Positions 6,809 through 13,186 of a DNA stretch of 38,143 nucleotides are shown in pieces. The stretch is from an uncultured Actinomycetes bacterium (GTDB taxonomy: Bacteria; Actinomycetota; Acidimicrobiia; Acidimicrobiales; Ilumatobacteraceae), in the NCBI GenBank assembly GCA_903872155.1, contig CAIQJP010000042.1, positions 147,028-185,170 of the forward strand, written 5' to 3'. The notes below the pieces were generated by a model. It was not told the DNA's origin. It worked only from the letters and a program-made list of their open reading frames with translations, and did no database searches. Position numbers and translations under genes: made by a program. How positions within the stretch are numbered: position 1 is the stretch's first letter; each line of letters opens with the position of its first letter.

Positions 6809-8281
6809 ATGACCACGAACTTGGACGTCATCGTCGTTGGCGGCGGAATTTCGGGCTTATCCACAGCCCTCAAGCTCAGCCGGGCCGGCCACCGCATCAC
6901 TGTTCTTGAGCGCGACGACACCCCGATGCCCGAAAGTGCCGACGCAGCCTTCGAGTGGGACCGTCGAGGCGCTCCTCAGGTTCGTCACAGCCACGCATTC
7001 TTGGCCCGCCTGGTGTCGTTGTTGAAGGCCAACGAACCTGACGTTCTCGACAAGTTGTTTGAAGCCGGCGCCACCGAGATCAAGTTTGGCGAAGACCTTC
7101 CCGCCACGATGGAAGGGTTCGTCTCCGAGCCCGAAGATGCCGAACTCAACATGCTCACGTGTCGGCGCACAACGTTCGAGTGGGTCTTGCGTCGTGTCGT
7201 GCTTGACGATGGACGTGTTTCATTCAAGACCGGAGTTGGAGTTAAAGGACTAGTACATGAGACCGATGCGACTTCTGGTCTTGAACGAATCACCGGCGTC
7301 ACTCTTGAAGATGGTTCGCAACTCACTGCCGACTTAGTTGTTGTTGCTGGTGGACGTCGCTCGTCGTTACCCGATTGGCTGAATGACATCGGTGTCGGAC
7401 CGGTACAGGAAGAAGTTGAAGATACGGGCATCATCTACACCTCGCGTTTTTATCGACTGAATCCTGGTCAGGTCTATCCCCCACGCAACGGACCCATCGG
7501 TGGCGATCTTGGTTATGTCAAGTACGGCGTTTTCGTGGGTGACAACAACACGTTCTCAATCACATTGGCCGCACCATCTGATGATGCCGAACTCCGCACC
7601 AAACTTTCTGATCCTGCGACCTTTGATGAAGCGGCACGCAAGTTAGTTGCCACTGCGCCCTACCTTGATGGTCGCGCCACGCCTTTAGTTGATGAAGTTT
7701 TTGTGATGGCCGGATTGTTGAATCGTCAGCGCCATTACGTCGTTGATGGAAAACCACTTGTGCTCGGCATGTTGCCTGTTGGTGACGCGGTCTTGTGTAC
7801 GAACCCGTTATATGGACGCGGTTGTTCAATTGGTTATTGGGGTGCACACCTCATGGCTCAGGCCATTAACGAACATGCCGACGATTTATTAACTCTTGCT
7901 ACCGAATACGACGCAGCACTACAGCGCGAAATTGTTCCGTGGTATCTATCTGGTGTTCAACAAGATGCCGAAGCTCGTCGCGTGTCATCTGCATTATTAA
8001 AGGGCGACGACCCCGATGTTGACACTGCCGATCCGAAAACGTTTATGCGCTCAGTTCTGCGCGAAGGATTATTGCCAGCGTTGCGTTACGACCCTGTGGT
8101 GTTGCGAGCGTTTATGCGCAATCTCAATTTGCTCACCGCACCTGATGCAATGATGAATAATCCCGAAGTCATGAATCGCGTGTTCGCCATTTGGCAAGAT
8201 CGTGAAAACCGACCCGCTGAAATTCCGCTTGGACCAAAGCGTCGACGTGAATTCTTAGAACTTCTGAATTCTGCAGCTTGA
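6809..8281 (+). CDS. FAD-dependent oxidoreductase (monooxygenase/halogenase-like fold)
   Basis: The 490-residue protein begins with the Rossmann dinucleotide-binding motif GGGISG at residues 11-16, ending at the acidic ERD that binds the FAD ribose. A second FAD motif, 'PVGDAVLCTNPLYGRGCSIGYW', lies at about 325-345, where PHBH-fold monooxygenases have their GD box. Between them is the DLVVVAGGRRSSLPDWL segment typical of this fold. The best fit is a PHBH-type flavoprotein close to lipid-modifying or geranylgeranyl-reductase-like oxidoreductases. The substrate is unknown. The downstream glycosyltransferase gene begins one base after its stop, so the two are co-transcribed and probably translationally coupled. 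A shared role in modifying a glycan or glycolipid is possible but is inference. Confidence 0.85.
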   Translation: MTTNLDVIVVGGGISGLSTALKLSRAGHRITVLERDDTPMPESADAAFEWDRRGAPQVRHSHAFLARLVSLLKANEPDVLDKLFEAGATEIKFGEDLPATMEGFVSEPEDAELNMLTCRRTTFEWVLRRVVLDDGRVSFKTGVGVKGLVHETDATSGLERITGVTLEDGSQLTADLVVVAGGRRSSLPDWLNDIGVGPVQEEVEDTGIIYTSRFYRLNPGQVYPPRNGPIGGDLGYVKYGVFVGDNNTFSITLAAPSDDAELRTKLSDPATFDEAARKLVATAPYLDGRATPLVDEVFVMAGLLNRQRHYVVDGKPLVLGMLPVGDAVLCTNPLYGRGCSIGYWGAHLMAQAINEHADDLLTLATEYDAALQREIVPWYLSGVQQDAEARRVSSALLKGDDPDVDTADPKTFMRSVLREGLLPALRYDPVVLRAFMRNLNLLTAPDAMMNNPEVMNRVFAIWQDRENRPAEIPLGPKRRREFLELLNSAA

Positions 8282-8282
8282 T

Positions 8283-11200
8283 GTGAACCAGACTGCGTCA
8301 CGTCCGCGCATTTGCCTGGCGATGATTGTTCGTGATGCCGCTGATTTCATCACCGAGACGTTGCAATCGGTTCTGCCATACATTGACGAATGGGTCATCG
8401 TTGACACTGGTTCTCTAGATAACACCAAACAAGTCGTTCAGAACTTCTTTGATGAAGCCCGACTGAAAGGCCATCTTGTTGAACGGCCATGGATCGGTTT
8501 TGCCCACAATCGCACCGAGGCCATTGCACTGTGTCAGGGGCACGGCGATTACGCACTGATGATTGATGCTGACGATTTGATTCAAGGCCAACTTGATCTG
8601 TCACATCTCGATGCTGCCGGGTATTGCGTGCGGTTTGGTCCACACAACGTGTACTGGCGTCCGGCCCTATTTTCACTCAATAAAAATTGGGAATTTCGCG
8701 GAGCAGTTCACGAATACGCAGTTTGTTTAGAAGGCGATCCGACCGTCAACCTCAATGGTGACTACAACTTCGTCTTTCGATCGCTTGGTAATCGTGGGAA
8801 AGACCCACTGAAGTTTCAGCGAGACATTGATGTACTACTTGCGGAATACGAAAAAGATCCAGACGATCCGCGAACCGTTTTCTACCTTGCCCAGAGTTAC
8901 CGGGATCACGGCGACACTGAAAAAGCTATTGAGTGGTATCGACATCGATCAGATATGCGCGGCTGGGATGAAGAAACTTTTGTTGCAACTCTTGAACTCG
9001 GCAAGTTATTGGTACAAACAAAGGCCGAGGCAGAATCCGTAGTCGAAACCTTCGCACGTGCTTGGCAACTGCGACCTTCCCGCGCTGAAGCATTAGTTGA
9101 GCTTGCAAGATTTCATCGAATCAACGAACATTGGTTTGATGGCTACCTTGTGGCTTACCGAGCAAGCAGTATTCCTTTCCCTGAAGAAGACCGACTCTTT
9201 GTTGATGCCAGTGCATATCGGTGGCGAGCGCTTGATGAGTTGGCTATTTGTGCTTCACAACTTGGCAACCACCAAGAGGCGATTAGTGCATGTCACCGCT
9301 TGTTGACATCACCACATTTACCCTTTGACCAACGCGAACGCGTTTTGTGGAATCAGACCTACTCCATGAAATGTTTGGGCTTTCCCCAGAACATCATTCG
9401 CGAACAACCCTTAGAACGTCGATCCGGCCCCAAAGACGATGTCACTTTTACGATCACTACTTGCCGGCGGCGTGAACTGTTCGAACGAACAATGGATTCG
9501 TTTTTAGAAAATTGCCTTGACCATCACTTAATCTCTCGCTGGATTTGTGTTGACGATGGCAGCAGCGAAGAAGATCGCGCGGCAATGCACGAGCGTTATC
9601 CATTTTTTGAATTCATCTACAAAGATGGTTCAGAAATCGGTCATGCAAAAAGCATGAACCGAATTCTGTATGAAGTGCACAGTAAATACTGGTTGCACTT
9701 TGAGGAAGACTGGCAAACTGTCAAGCCCAGTCACTACATCAGTGCTGCCATTGCTGTACTTGATAATGATGATTCGCTCATTCAATGTGTCCTGAATCGC
9801 AACTATGCCGAAATTCTTGATAACCACAACATCGTTGGTGGACATCTTGTCGTGAGCCAAGATCATCAAGCCGTTTACCGAGTACACGATTACATCAACC
9901 CAGAGTCACCAGAATTTAATTCTCTACTTGCTCAAAATCCTGGACGACTCACTAATGCTTATTGGCCAGGGTTTTCATTGATGCCTTCATTACTGCGCCG
10001 TCAAGCCTTTGACGGTTTGGGTTCGTTCAACCCTGGTGCAGGTCACTTTGAACGTGATATGGCCGATCGAGCGATGGGTCGTGGCTGGAAAACCGCCTGC
10101 TTTGACGACTTAACGATGTTGAACATTGGTCGCTTGCGCATTGAGACCAATCCTGACGGCCCCCTCAATGCCTATCAGCTACTCGGCGTTGACCAATTCG
10201 CTGACTTTGAAGACATCACTGTCGGCATCGTCACCAATTGGACCGACGGCGACAACGTCGTTCGCCAGTGGCAACGGCAGTTTCCAAATAACGGTGCATG
10301 GAAAGGAGTACGCCTCGTGACGTCCGATGGCGATGCTGTACCGCACTTCACATTGGTGATTAATCATCCTCGGAACGAAGATCTACCAATCAACGTCAAC
10401 ACTTCAATCGTGGTACATATGGAACCGCAAGAAGGAACTTCGCTCTACGGAGACTGGGCAAAACCAGACTCGACGCGTTTCATGCACGTGCACTCTCGTG
10501 ACTTTGCCCTGAATTTCTTGGAGTGGCACCTTGACATAAGTTACGACCAATTGGCAACCACAAGTCCTAGCAAGACCGCAGACTTGTCAGCGATTGTCAC
10601 CGGCAAGCGATTATCTCCTGGTCATCACTTGCGCTTAGATCTCATTCACCATCTTGAATCAATCGAACACGAGATTGATGTTTTTGGACTCGACAACAAC
10701 GAGTCATTCAGAAATTACCGCGGGGCACTTCCATGGCTCGACAAACGCGAAGGTCTTGCCCCATACCGTTACACAATTGCTGTTGAGAATAACTCAGAGA
10801 ACAACTACGTCACCGAGAAACTGACTGATGCAATTCTTTCGGAATGCCTCCCCTTTTACTGGGGATGCCCCAACCTCGAAGACATCATTGATCCCGATTC
10901 GTTTATTCGATTACCTTCTGACGACATCACAGCAGCTACGTCAATCATTCGTGAAGCTATTGCCAAGGATGAATACTCTCGGCGCTTACCAGCAATCAAG
11001 CGGAGCAAAGAAAAGCTCCTGAATTCCTTGCAACTTGCTCCCACAATTTCACGGATTATTCGTGGGCACAACCTTCTCAATCAAACTCCGATTCATCTCA
11101 TTAATCTTGATCGGCGTGCAGATCGACTTGATGAGTTCATGCAACGCGTTTCGCTAGCAAGTGGAGATCGATTGGCCTCGCGCATCGAGCGGTTCTCGGC

Positions 11201-11744
11201 AATTGATGGTCAAGATCTCGAGATGACGCCAGAAATTATGCACATGTTCAGGGGAAGCGACCTTCCACTACGTCGTTCACAAACGGCGTGCGCGTTAAGC
11301 CATTTGTCTTTGTGGATTGAACTCATCAGCAGCGAGCATGATCGCTACATCATCTTTGAAGACGACGCCTTTTTCGCAGACAACTTCAATTCACGACTCG
11401 GTGTACTACTCGGCCAGCTAGACGATGAAAGTGCAATTGACGTGGCTTTTTTGGGACTTCACTACCATGACGATTCACAGCGTCCACAAAGTTCGGTGCA
11501 AACTTTCCGCGAACTACAGATTGATCAATTGATGGGCGGAACTTTCGGTTACCTCATCACAAGATCTGGCGCACAGAAATTATTGAATATTGCACAAGTT
11601 GAGGGAATCCCTTACGGAATTGACACTTTCATGTTGATGAATCGTCATCGAGTACGACTCATTGAATCGTTGCCCAACATCGTCTCATCTCCAGTCGCGC
11701 GAAGTGATGGATCACTTGTTGACTCAGATATTCAGTACGAGTAG
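8283..11744 (+). CDS. Four-module glycosyltransferase: GT2 - TPR - GT2 - GT10-like - GT25-like
   Basis: This 1153-residue protein strings several glycosyltransferases together. Residues 8-115 are a GT-A GT2 domain ('CLAMIVRDAADF', DTGS, and an acidic DADD near 95). About 185-345 are TPR-like helices. Residues 387-610 are a second GT2-like domain (TITTCRRRELF, VDDGSS, HFEEDW). About 640-905 match the GT10 fucosyltransferase C-terminal core, with ENN..NNYVTEKLTDA at 834-850 and PFYWGCPNLEDII after it. About 935-1125 match GT25 (LPS/procollagen galactosyltransferase type): INLDRRADRLDEF, ALSHLSLW, FEDDAF at 1025-1030. No signal peptide or membrane helix is seen, so it should act in the cytoplasm. 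The GTG start at 8283 follows the oxidoreductase stop by one base. The gene ends 8 bases from the end of the convergent collagen-like gene. Sugar donors and acceptor are unknown. Confidence 0.9.
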   Translation: MNQTASRPRICLAMIVRDAADFITETLQSVLPYIDEWVIVDTGSLDNTKQVVQNFFDEARLKGHLVERPWIGFAHNRTEAIALCQGHGDYALMIDADDLIQGQLDLSHLDAAGYCVRFGPHNVYWRPALFSLNKNWEFRGAVHEYAVCLEGDPTVNLNGDYNFVFRSLGNRGKDPLKFQRDIDVLLAEYEKDPDDPRTVFYLAQSYRDHGDTEKAIEWYRHRSDMRGWDEETFVATLELGKLLVQTKAEAESVVETFARAWQLRPSRAEALVELARFHRINEHWFDGYLVAYRASSIPFPEEDRLFVDASAYRWRALDELAICASQLGNHQEAISACHRLLTSPHLPFDQRERVLWNQTYSMKCLGFPQNIIREQPLERRSGPKDDVTFTITTCRRRELFERTMDSFLENCLDHHLISRWICVDDGSSEEDRAAMHERYPFFEFIYKDGSEIGHAKSMNRILYEVHSKYWLHFEEDWQTVKPSHYISAAIAVLDNDDSLIQCVLNRNYAEILDNHNIVGGHLVVSQDHQAVYRVHDYINPESPEFNSLLAQNPGRLTNAYWPGFSLMPSLLRRQAFDGLGSFNPGAGHFERDMADRAMGRGWKTACFDDLTMLNIGRLRIETNPDGPLNAYQLLGVDQFADFEDITVGIVTNWTDGDNVVRQWQRQFPNNGAWKGVRLVTSDGDAVPHFTLVINHPRNEDLPINVNTSIVVHMEPQEGTSLYGDWAKPDSTRFMHVHSRDFALNFLEWHLDISYDQLATTSPSKTADLSAIVTGKRLSPGHHLRLDLIHHLESIEHEIDVFGLDNNESFRNYRGALPWLDKREGLAPYRYTIAVENNSENNYVTEKLTDAILSECLPFYWGCPNLEDIIDPDSFIRLPSDDITAATSIIREAIAKDEYSRRLPAIKRSKEKLLNSLQLAPTISRIIRGHNLLNQTPIHLINLDRRADRLDEFMQRVSLASGDRLASRIERFSAIDGQDLEMTPEIMHMFRGSDLPLRRSQTACALSHLSLWIELISSEHDRYIIFEDDAFFADNFNSRLGVLLGQLDDESAIDVAFLGLHYHDDSQRPQSSVQTFRELQIDQLMGGTFGYLITRSGAQKLLNIAQVEGIPYGIDTFMLMNRHRVRLIESLPNIVSSPVARSDGSLVDSDIQYE

Positions 11745-11752
11745 GTCACTGA

Positions 11753-12763
11753 TCAATTAGGACTGAACGTCGGCATTGGACCTGTGTCGCCCATCGGACC
11801 AGTCGGACCTGGGTAGCCGGTGTCACCAGTTGCTCCAGGCGCACCAGTGTCACCCTGCGGACCAGTCGGACCTTGGTAGCCGGTGTTACCGGTCATACCA
11901 GTAGCGCCAGTCGGACCCCATGCCCCAGTAGGGCCAGTCGGTCCTAGAGCACCTGTTGGGCCGTACACACCAGTCGGACCCCATGCCCCAGTCGGGCCAG
12001 TCGAACCTCGAGCACCAGTCGGACCGTACGCACCAGTCGGACCCCATGCCCCAGTCGCGCCGGTTGCACCGATCGCGCCAGTTGGGCCGTACACACCAGT
12101 CGCTCCCATAGCGCCAGTCGGACCCCATGCCCCAGTCGCGCCGGTTGCACCGATCGCGCCGGTTGAACCCATAGCGCCAGTCACACCAGGAGACCCCGTT
12201 GCGCCAGTCGAACCCGCAGCTCCCGTCGCACCTCGTGCACCGGTTGAGCCATCTACACCCGGGGTTCCTTGAGCACCGGTGTCACCACGTGGGCCAGTCG
12301 GGCCGCCTAGTGGTCCGGTCGGACCAACTGAACCATTTTGCCCGGTGGCCCCAGCTGGGCCAGATGCTCCGTCACGTCCATTTGTCCCATTTATGCCAGC
12401 AGCTCCAGTTGCTCCAGCAAGCCCAGCTGCACCAGTTGCACCATCACGCCCATTTGCTCCGGCGGCACCCGTTGCGCCGTCACGACCGTCACGACCGTTA
12501 ATACCGTTGATTCCGTTCGTGCCGTTTGCACCGTCTTGGCCGGCTAAACCGTCTTGGCCAGCCGCACCATCGATACCGACTGCGCCATCTTTACCAATAA
12601 TTCCGTCGGCACCATCAGCGCCCGAGGCTCCATCCTTGCCGGCAACGACAGAAGCAATAACACCACCACCAACTGCACCGCCGAGGACCGAAATGACCGA
12701 TGACAACAACAATGTGCGTCGCGAAACTTCACTTCCAATTTTCCCGCCAAAGGATGAAGTCAC
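11753..12763 (-). CDS. Exported collagen-like protein with 96 Gly-X-Y triplets
   Basis: The 336-residue protein starts with a Tat-like signal or anchor (SRRTLLL at 14-20 and a hydrophobic Gly/Val/Ala stretch to about 41). It then runs as Gly-X-Y from residue 42 nearly to the end. There are 37 triplets, one extra Gly at 153, and 59 more triplets, ending in a 6-residue PTFSPN tail. The first block is rich in Asp, Asn and Arg (GRD, GQD, GIN). The second is rich in Thr and Pro (GPT, GAT), as in Bacillus BclA, where Thr carries O-glycans. Trp and Tyr in GAW, GVY and GAY triplets are unusual. No globular trimerisation domain or sorting signal is present. The start is GTG at 12763. The neighbour, a GT25-containing enzyme, is a candidate modifier. 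Confidence 0.92.
11907..12136. repeat. Tandem coding repeat in the collagen region
   Basis: A 23-base unit beginning ccagtcggaccccatg recurs at 11907, 11970, 12033 and 12114, at spacings of 63, 63 and 81 bases, all multiples of 9. On the minus strand it encodes the Gly-Ala-Trp-Gly-Pro-Thr module. It is probably prone to length change by slippage or recombination in steps of whole triplets. Confidence 0.85.
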
Positions 12764-12770
12764 AAGAAAT

Positions 12771-12801
12771 ATTGTATCCCTAAGTTACGACCAATGGTCA
12801 A
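12771..12801 (-). promoter_or_regulatory. Putative promoter of the collagen-like gene
   Basis: On the minus strand TTGACC (12801-12796), a 19-base spacer and TACAAT (12776-12771) form a good -35/-10 pair with slightly long spacing. The -10 ends 7 bases before the GTG start at 12763, so the mRNA would be leaderless or nearly so. The rest of the 12764-12910 gap shows nothing else I can name. Confidence 0.5.
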
Positions 12802-12910
12802 GTTGTAGACATAACTTTTGTGTTCCACATTTCACGAATGAAAAGTTGACTCGCCGAGGGAAGCGACATCGAATTTCAACTCAGGCGCTGACAAACAACG
12901 CCATTCGAAA

Positions 12911-13186
12911 TCAGCCGCCGGCAACAGCAGGAATGATGCTCACGGTTTCGCCCGCAGGCACCGGAGTCTCAAGACCCTGCAAGTAACGCACATCATCGTC
13001 AGCAACAAACAAGTTCACGAAGCGACGCAAACCACCATTGTCATCAAACAAACGATCTTTGAATCCGGGATGGACGGCCTCAAGGTTGGCCAACACTTCG
13101 CCAAGGGTTGCGCCTTCAACAGACACGGTGGAATTTCCACCTGAAAGTGGACGAAGGGTTGTCGGAATACGAACGGTCACGGACAT
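12911..13186 (-). CDS. cysO: CysO-like ubiquitin-fold sulfur carrier (MoaD/ThiS family)
   Basis: The 91-residue protein ends in the Gly-Gly tail (VSIIPAVAGG) needed for thiocarboxylation. It closely follows the Mycobacterium CysO pattern: VTVRIPTTLRPLSGG, TLGEVLANLE, RRFVNLFVADDDVR and the AVAGG end. CysO thiocarboxylate gives its sulfur to O-phosphoserine via CysM in an oxidant-resistant cysteine pathway, and Mec then releases cysteine. Neither cysM nor mec is adjacent here, so a role in molybdopterin (MoaD) or another sulfur transfer cannot be excluded, but the sequence pattern favours CysO. It starts at the ATG at 13186, divergent from glycerate kinase. Confidence 0.85.
   Translation of the reverse strand: MSVTVRIPTTLRPLSGGNSTVSVEGATLGEVLANLEAVHPGFKDRLFDDNGGLRRFVNLFVADDDVRYLQGLETPVPAGETVSIIPAVAGG

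Follow-up and report, generated by a model that had tools for sequence, protein, structure and literature searches.

A putative collagen O-glycosylation cassette: a multi-module glycosyltransferase gene beside a Thr-rich collagen-like gene in an Ilumatobacteraceae genome

A glycosyltransferase gene paired with a collagen-like gene

The analysed stretch of contig CAIQJP010000042.1 from an uncultured Ilumatobacteraceae bacterium (38,143 nucleotides, hereafter the window) carries the gene of a multi-module glycosyltransferase (GT), P0001, and the gene of a collagen-like protein, P0002, which lie tail to tail and 8 bases apart, the open reading frame (ORF) coordinates bearing out what a sequence-only reading of this DNA had described. 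The two genes probably constitute a dedicated cassette for collagen O-glycosylation, in which a multi-sugar glycan would be assembled on threonine at the Y position of the Gly-X-Y triplets (Y-Thr) before export by the twin-arginine translocation (Tat) pathway. This reading is carried by the module make-up of P0001 with its motifs, by the linkage of such GT genes to Thr-rich collagens across phyla and gene arrangements, and by the joint absence of both genes at empty sites. P0001 joins in a single chain, in this order, a GT2 domain (module M1), a tetratricopeptide repeat (TPR) region, a second GT-A domain (M2), a GT10 domain (M3) and a GT25 domain (M4), as listed in Table 1.

Linkage of the two genes across genomes

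Among 61 genomes, the window's own included, long homologues of the GT were found in four others (G016, G015, G002 and G033), those of G015 and G002 being cut on the 5' side and that of G033 being without M3, and a collagen-like gene stands immediately beside the GT in all four. A search of the same 61 genomes with P0002 gave matches starting in the signal region only in G000, G016 and G015; the match in G034 starts at residue 35, just before the repeat, and the collagen partners of G002 and G033 are cut or diverged in the signal region. The GT alignment, run against the species genomes of GTDB, returned 26 loci, reduced to 24 family loci after two from Streptomyces (L074 and L075) were set aside, which match only residues 366-515, a part of M2, at 23-26%. 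By record titles and tree labels the family loci belong to Actinomycetota, Pseudomonadota (Burkholderiales), Myxococcota, Acidobacteriota and Cyanobacteriota, the cyanobacterial locus (L072) being that of Picosynechococcus PCC 7117. A collagen-like gene lies at most 1.3 kb away in 16 of the 24; in three more (L053, L054 and L060) the ORF straight after the GT is cut by the contig end, its Tat-like N-terminus matching the confirmed collagen partner of the sister locus; and another three (L061, L062 and L069) are cut off at the GT. Different arrangements were observed for the 17 full pairs (P0001/P0002 counted), with 5 tail to tail, 7 with the GT followed by the collagen, 2 head to head and 3 with the collagen followed by the GT, counts of arrangement and gap that rest on gene starts trimmed by hand. 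In relatives the pair is often on the same strand, as an apparent operon. Since the adjacency persists through rearrangement, it points to function rather than to frozen gene order, and since the pair recurs across phyla, it is not a matter of chance.

Family matches at E <= 1e-20 were obtained in 19 of 397 genomes of the order. Of the 22 places of the family, 10 have a collagen-like ORF within 1.5 kb, compared with none of 30 other GT2 loci (Fisher p 4.1e-5; this and the later p-values ignore kinship within lineages, except in the lineage-collapsed Thr test). The 22 places are the order-wide matches minus L096 and L099, which are further pieces of counted genes, with G019, G258 and G278 contributing two each, and the 30 control loci were drawn from ten genomes chosen for carrying the pair. 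On plasmids, 19 records had a match to GT2-TPR or GT10, and six of the eight inspected (L100-L104 and L107; two Cupriavidus, Methylobacterium, Mesorhizobium, Peribacillus and E. coli) hold a collagen-like ORF within ~1.5 kb of the GT2-TPR gene.

Several further features of these loci were noted. The collagens of L056, L065, L066 and L070 (Burkholderiales, Myxococcota, Acidobacteriota) share by eye an NYQGRLTDP-like N-terminal head before the repeat, and small SSAS-type genes lie near the collagen gene in L056, L065 and L066. L050 and L053 are titled as Bifidobacterium breve metagenome-assembled genomes (MAGs); their sequences group with Acidimicrobiia MAGs, the GT of L050 being 87% identical, and the titles look mislabelled. 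On the E. coli plasmid pRT18-1 (L100 573-5191) the gene of a 398-aa GT2-TPR protein directly follows that of an autotransporter containing a collagen stretch of 41 triplets, and plasmids of Enterobacter and Citrobacter give tblastn matches to this GT at equal identity. The glycine-rich ORF 1.7 kb from the GT of L068, considered as a collagen partner, is not a collagen.

The genomic site of the pair

The FAD gene upstream of the pair (6809-8281) served as the anchor for an empty-site comparison of ten same-genus genomes, in nine of which both flanks were readable. In all nine the FAD gene directly neighbours the ThiS gene, and no GT or collagen gene was detected between the two by tblastn (E <= 1e-8); in G004 the proteins flanking the empty site are 96-100% identical to those of the window. 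The downstream flank is a ThiS/SAMP1-like small modifier gene (12911-13186), which scores 58.6 with NCBIfam, the SAMP1 cut-off being 60 bits. In G015 the pair is located at the same ThiS flank with two additional genes, which encode a 569-aa protein and a stand-alone GT2-TPR; G016 retains a stand-alone GT2-TPR; in loci L041 and L042 (also labelled L050 and L063; L042 is from G015) the stand-alone GT2-TPR gene lies ahead of the collagen gene and is read in the same direction. The site is probably an old accessory island that has been lost both piecewise and whole. The 569-aa protein of G015 (L042 2725-4434), which precedes the stand-alone GT2-TPR, has a weak, sub-cut-off match to HtrL_YibB, and a similarly weak match is displayed by an N-terminal stretch fused to GT2-TPR in G094 (L129 5581-8616).

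Conservation of the pair had been set beforehand as the check on a collagen glycosylation locus with Thr as the likely sugar site, and the neighbours kept together in relatives from several phyla, as well as the loss of both genes together, lend this proposal support at the level of genome comparison. The FAD enzyme, suggested at that time to alter the sugar, must be withdrawn as a sugar-modifying partner, as it persists at the site where the GT and the collagen are gone; it is encoded in 14 same-genus genomes that have no full-length GT, and because it is present in genomes without the pair it is placed outside the system.

Modules, motifs and fold of P0001

The Pfam searches identified GT2 at the N-terminus (E 3.4e-18) followed by TPRs, GT10 at residues 781-877 (E 1.9e-8) and GT25 at residues 935-1117 (E 2.6e-21), and the succession of a GT2 domain and TPRs in one chain was likewise observed in the module profiles and in the AlphaFold2 model of P0001 (mean pLDDT 84.2, pTM 0.62). 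In this model M1 resembles SunS/ThuS over residues 1-285 (Z 17-19, root mean square deviation (rmsd) 2.7-2.8), M2 resembles TarP and GalNAc-Ts, a generic GT-A fold, over ~383-640 (Z ~15), the PDB sequence search giving no match for this stretch, and M4 resembles mimivirus R655 over 934-1153 (Z 24.3, rmsd 2.1, 202 residues, 26% identity). The solved structures were also searched with a profile built from 22 P0001 homologues, which matched SunS (3.9e-15) and GmaR (1.2e-14) with its M1 part, solved alpha-1,3-fucosyltransferases with its M3 part (plant fucosyltransferase, 1.3e-12), and R655 (1.3e-37), COLGALT1 (5.7e-24) and a bacterial GT25 beta-1,4-galactosyltransferase (9.8e-8) with its GT25 part. 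The GT motifs comprise DTGS and DAD in M1, EDDW in M2, ENxxExNYxTEK in M3 and EDD in M4, and they are largely kept across the homologues; M2 of P0001 reads EEDW where most homologues read EDDW, and its DDGS is also present.

By both profile and fold, R655 and COLGALT1 are therefore the solved structures closest to M4, and with its EDD motif M4 stands nearer to these two than to the bacterial polysaccharide-type GT25. Assignment of the last module to GT25, the family of procollagen galactosyltransferases and lipopolysaccharide (LPS) enzymes, had been made from sequence; it holds by Pfam PF01755 and can be narrowed to the procollagen/R655 branch, and it does not group with LPS enzymes, judged by the nearest solved structures. 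The activity of R655 was still untested in 2022 (PMC9546862). In L067, where M2 and M4 are neighbouring modules, the modelled pair has COLGALT1 as its top Foldseek match with both domains in order (E 5.5e-21); a joint superposition of the two domains fails (rmsd 15-18 A, model pTM 0.52), and a packing equal to that of COLGALT1 is not established by this model.

The common core of the family is M1-TPR-M2, present wherever a family locus extends far enough to include it. M3 is absent from L064, L066, L067, L068 and L071, both M3 and M4 are absent from L065, L070 and L072, and L056 and L061 have an additional M3-type domain ahead of M1, a pattern of presence and absence that would fit one module per sugar. 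The GT of L073 lies in broken frames. The M1-TPR part also aligns at 30% with a GT2-TPR ORF on the Peribacillus plasmid, which is located two genes downstream of a collagen-like gene.

SunS/ThuS and GmaR act on bacteriocin Cys or flagellin. M1 is like these peptide glycosyltransferases by profile (SunS, GmaR) and by fold (SunS/ThuS), whereas M2-M4 have no counterpart in those matches. Among the closest known systems is SgtA of Clostridioides difficile, a 358-aa protein of GT plus TPR that is encoded immediately upstream of bclA3 and, in vitro, transfers beta-O-N-acetylglucosamine (GlcNAc) in a metal-dependent manner onto Thr (and Ser) in peptides of the BclA3 collagen repeat (PMC7157674). As in that system, a GT-plus-TPR enzyme is encoded here beside a GPT-rich collagen-like protein, the P0001 gene lying at its 8-nt distance from a Thr-rich collagen-like gene, and residues 1-365 of P0001 match SgtA in architecture and size, a likeness drawn from its published description. 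Unlike SgtA, which consists of GT and TPR only, P0001 fuses the GT2-TPR unit to three further GT modules, and unlike BclA3, which is a spore-surface protein, P0002 carries a Tat-like signal.

Table 1. Positions of the genes, modules and regions of the GT-collagen locus in the window
Feature	Position	Strand	Basis
Multi-module glycosyltransferase gene (P0001, 1153 aa)	8283..11744	+	ORF, Pfam, AlphaFold2 model, homologues
Module M1, GT2 domain (residues 1-170)	8283..8792	+	Pfam PF00535, profile and fold matches, motifs
TPR region (residues 171-365)	8793..9377	+	Pfam TPRs, helices in AlphaFold2 model
Module M2, second GT-A domain (residues 380-625)	9420..10157	+	Fold matches, in-order alignment (with M4) to the two COLGALT1 domains, motifs DDGS, EEDW
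Module M3, GT10 fucosyltransferase-like (residues 650-930), ENNSENNYVTEK motif	10230..11072	+	Pfam PF00852, solved fucosyltransferases
Module M4, GT25 domain (residues 931-1153), EDD motif	11073..11741	+	Pfam PF01755, profile, fold
Collagen-like protein gene (P0002, 336 aa), proposed substrate	11753..12763	-	ORF, Pfam collagen
Tat-like signal region (residues 1-41), SRRTLLLSS and hydrophobic stretch	12641..12763	-	Sequence, motif test
Gly-X-Y repeat, 96 triplets	11774..12640	-	Triplet count
Accessory block (GT and collagen), absent as a unit in 9/9 readable sites	8282..12910	.	Same-genus comparison

The collagen-like partners

P0002 matches the collagen family PF01391 (E 1.3e-44), and its long repeat is interrupted by a single 1-residue break. 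Thr occupies Y in 37 of the 96 triplets and Lys in none; GPT and GAT occur 13 times each, and the C-terminal half, earlier described as rich in these two triplets, indeed has Y-Thr in 28 of 48 triplets against 9 of 48 in the N-terminal half. In the GT-linked collagens Thr at Y ranges from 0.31 to 0.81 with a median of 0.52 (n=18); for the unlinked collagens from this order the median is 0.13 (Mann-Whitney p 1.4e-7, n=44). Neither the removal of Pro-poor ORFs (29 left, p 3e-7) nor the collapse of the linked rows into 11 lineages (p 8e-6), with lineages and medians assigned by hand, abolishes this contrast. A collagen was counted as unlinked where the stretch at hand, mostly 1.5 kb flanks, held no GT2-TPR profile match, and some of these ORFs end at locus edges; L142, L143, L156 and L162 were removed from the unlinked rows as GT-linked, their genes being in the linked set, and so were the repeat rows of already counted genes (L154, L155, L157-L160, L164, L175, L182 and L185). 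Lys makes up a fraction of only 0.00-0.03 of the Y positions in the 16 linked collagens for which it was determined. The collagen-like candidate substrate resembles Bacillus BclA, a glycosylated collagen-like surface protein (PMC8968730) that bears a rhamnose-anthrose tetrasaccharide. In G019 a 1462-aa collagen-like protein (L195 3007-7395) displays Thr at Y of ~0.9 with no GT2-TPR alongside, and its neighbour is a 397-aa protein.

The N-terminus of P0002 contains SRRTLLLSS, then a hydrophobic stretch and directly after it the repeat, and thereby exhibits the S/T-R-R-x-hydrophobic motif of Tat substrates; as it has no match to the curated TAT signal model, the signal is termed Tat-like only. 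In a test for RR plus a hydrophobic stretch, 17 of 22 collagen partners were positive (L044 and L132 weakly), against 1 of 29 unlinked collagens, which were hand-picked mainly for having their start inside the locus, and 9 of 249 other ORFs; the script overlooked visible RR motifs in L056 and L128. Genes for TatC and a gmd homologue are present in the genome, which would make both export by Tat and a supply of GDP-6-deoxyhexose possible.

Proposed mechanism and alternatives

P0001 would act in the cytoplasm, where the N-terminal GT2-TPR unit would bind the collagen-like chain and put the first sugar, perhaps GlcNAc by analogy with SgtA, on the Y-Thr of GPT, GAT and other GXT triplets. Initiation by M1-TPR is suggested because of the SgtA-like architecture and the alignment with the Peribacillus GT2-TPR ORF. 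M2, M3 and M4 may then extend this sugar, so that one polypeptide would build a short oligosaccharide, the donor of M3 being probably a GDP-6-deoxyhexose, for instance GDP-fucose, and that of M4, which belongs to the R655/COLGALT branch of GT25, probably UDP-Gal or UDP-Glc. The decorated collagen would leave through the Tat pathway and be displayed on the surface as a hydrated fibre, and the sugars on Y-Thr may stabilise the triple helix where hydroxyproline is missing. The likely gains that we infer would be a stabilised helix and a hydrated coat at the surface, in line with the view of BclA in PMC8968730; the same proposed status applies to the acceptor residue, the module order, the identity of the sugars, export by Tat and the role at the surface.

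Among the alternatives, glycosylation of the collagen by another route is unlikely, and it keeps some weight. The GT25 module or a stand-alone GT2-TPR would initiate, or the sugar would sit elsewhere than on Y-Thr, such as on Ser, Asn or the N-terminal stretch. The stand-alone GT2-TPR gene upstream of the collagen gene in two relatives (L041 and L042) speaks for it, and related enzymes modify collagen directly, namely the animal hydroxylysine galactosyltransferase and mimivirus L230, the N-terminal domain of which resembles the animal enzyme (PMC9614988). Such a stand-alone gene is absent from the P0001 locus, however, and the search of the window's own genome matched nothing else but a second cassette (below), so a module of P0001 itself would have to initiate. 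L065, L070 and L072 are without M3 and M4, while M1-TPR-M2 is universal in the long-enough family loci, and the residue enriched at Y is Thr. The GT25 module is unlikely to initiate, because the N-terminal GT2-TPR has the architecture of SgtA, the known initiator on collagen Thr (PMC7157674).

A cell-envelope polysaccharide or lipoglycan as the target of the GT, with its place beside the collagen gene a neutral accident, is improbable. GT2, GT10 and GT25 modules are also found in polysaccharide synthesis, the Pfam title of GT25 refers to it, and the P0001/P0002 pair is convergent and not an operon. Against these points, the pair recurs in five phyla and four arrangements, the control GT2 loci yielded no collagen-like ORF, the two genes are jointly absent at every readable empty site, and M1 resembles the peptide GTs SunS and GmaR. 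Glycosylation of the animal or mimivirus type on hydroxylysine, the acceptor of COLGALT1, can practically be dismissed in spite of the kinship of M4 to R655 and COLGALT1, as sequence contradicts this acceptor: P0002 has no Lys at Y and the linked collagens are essentially without it.

Several observations weigh against a dedicated cassette acting on Y-Thr. In two of the 24 family loci (L068 and L073) the visible side holds no collagen, 12 of the 22 family places in the order have no collagen-like ORF within 1.5 kb, some of them being cut by contig ends, and G040, G019 and G410 show no nearby collagen even in longer stretches. Two of the eight inspected plasmids (L105 and L106; Priestia and Acinetobacter) are without a collagen by the GT2-TPR gene, the neighbour on the Acinetobacter plasmid being a YadA-type protein, and in jumbo phage Tunturi_5 the five translated neighbours of the GT2-TPR gene, which lies near a tail-fibre gene, are not collagens. 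Confidence in the domain packing of P0001 is low, as the pTM of its model indicates, and L067 has degraded M2 motifs. Six of the 44 unlinked collagens are equally Thr-rich (five at 0.42-0.59 and one, of the same genus, at ~0.9), and Thr at Y reaches 31.6% in all bacterial collagens, a figure taken from PMC8968730, so Y-Thr richness is common in bacterial collagens generally and not specific to linked ones. Five of the 22 partners, the cyanobacterial one among them, fail the RR motif test, and the best of 10 partners reached 15.1 bits with the curated TAT model, below its cut-off of 16.7. The literature sources consulted show no sugar on P0002 or on any linked collagen outside Firmicutes.

A broader proposition, to which we give slightly less than an even chance, is that a class of cassettes crosses phyla in which one cytoplasmic assembly-line enzyme would place a multi-sugar glycan on Y-Thr of collagens that would be exported folded via Tat. 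The enzyme in this proposition would combine GT2-TPR with a COLGALT1-like pair of GT-A and GT25 domains, with GT10 as an optional module between them.

Significance

C. difficile already provides a case of a GT2-TPR enzyme paired with a collagen. Searches of open-access papers, several of them aimed at neighbouring topics, brought up no fused multi-module enzyme carrying a collagen-branch GT25, no Tat-like partners and no such spread across phyla, a weak absence since subscription journals were mostly not covered. The bacterial collagen glycosylation described in the literature consulted stems from Firmicute spores; the cassette suggests that it may be widespread among environmental bacteria and names enzyme-substrate pairs. 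It may also offer a one-protein tool for defined sugar chains on recombinant collagen without hydroxylysine, and it raises the question of whether animal, viral and bacterial GT25 enzymes share an old collagen-linked ancestry. If the broader proposition is true, the association of COLGALT-type GT25 with collagen would extend past animals and giant viruses and would be independent of lysine hydroxylation.

Phage matches and a second cassette

A viral origin of the pair was considered and set aside, as scanning viral contigs yielded 26 pattern matches, none of them a relative; 12 phage records matched, none over 80% of the query, and the 10 listed among them matched only in the GT2-TPR or GT10 part. 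The GT2-TPR gene of Tunturi_5 (L233 4004-9023) is convergent with a run of small genes beside the tail fibre gene. The second cassette of the window's own genome (L047 6220-11502, C21) encodes two proteins that are Tat-like by eye, with 11 SGN repeats each, directly preceding a 1193-aa GT2-TPR-GT7C-GT10 enzyme, and such a GT with an SGN-repeat neighbour was observed in all five genus genomes inspected.

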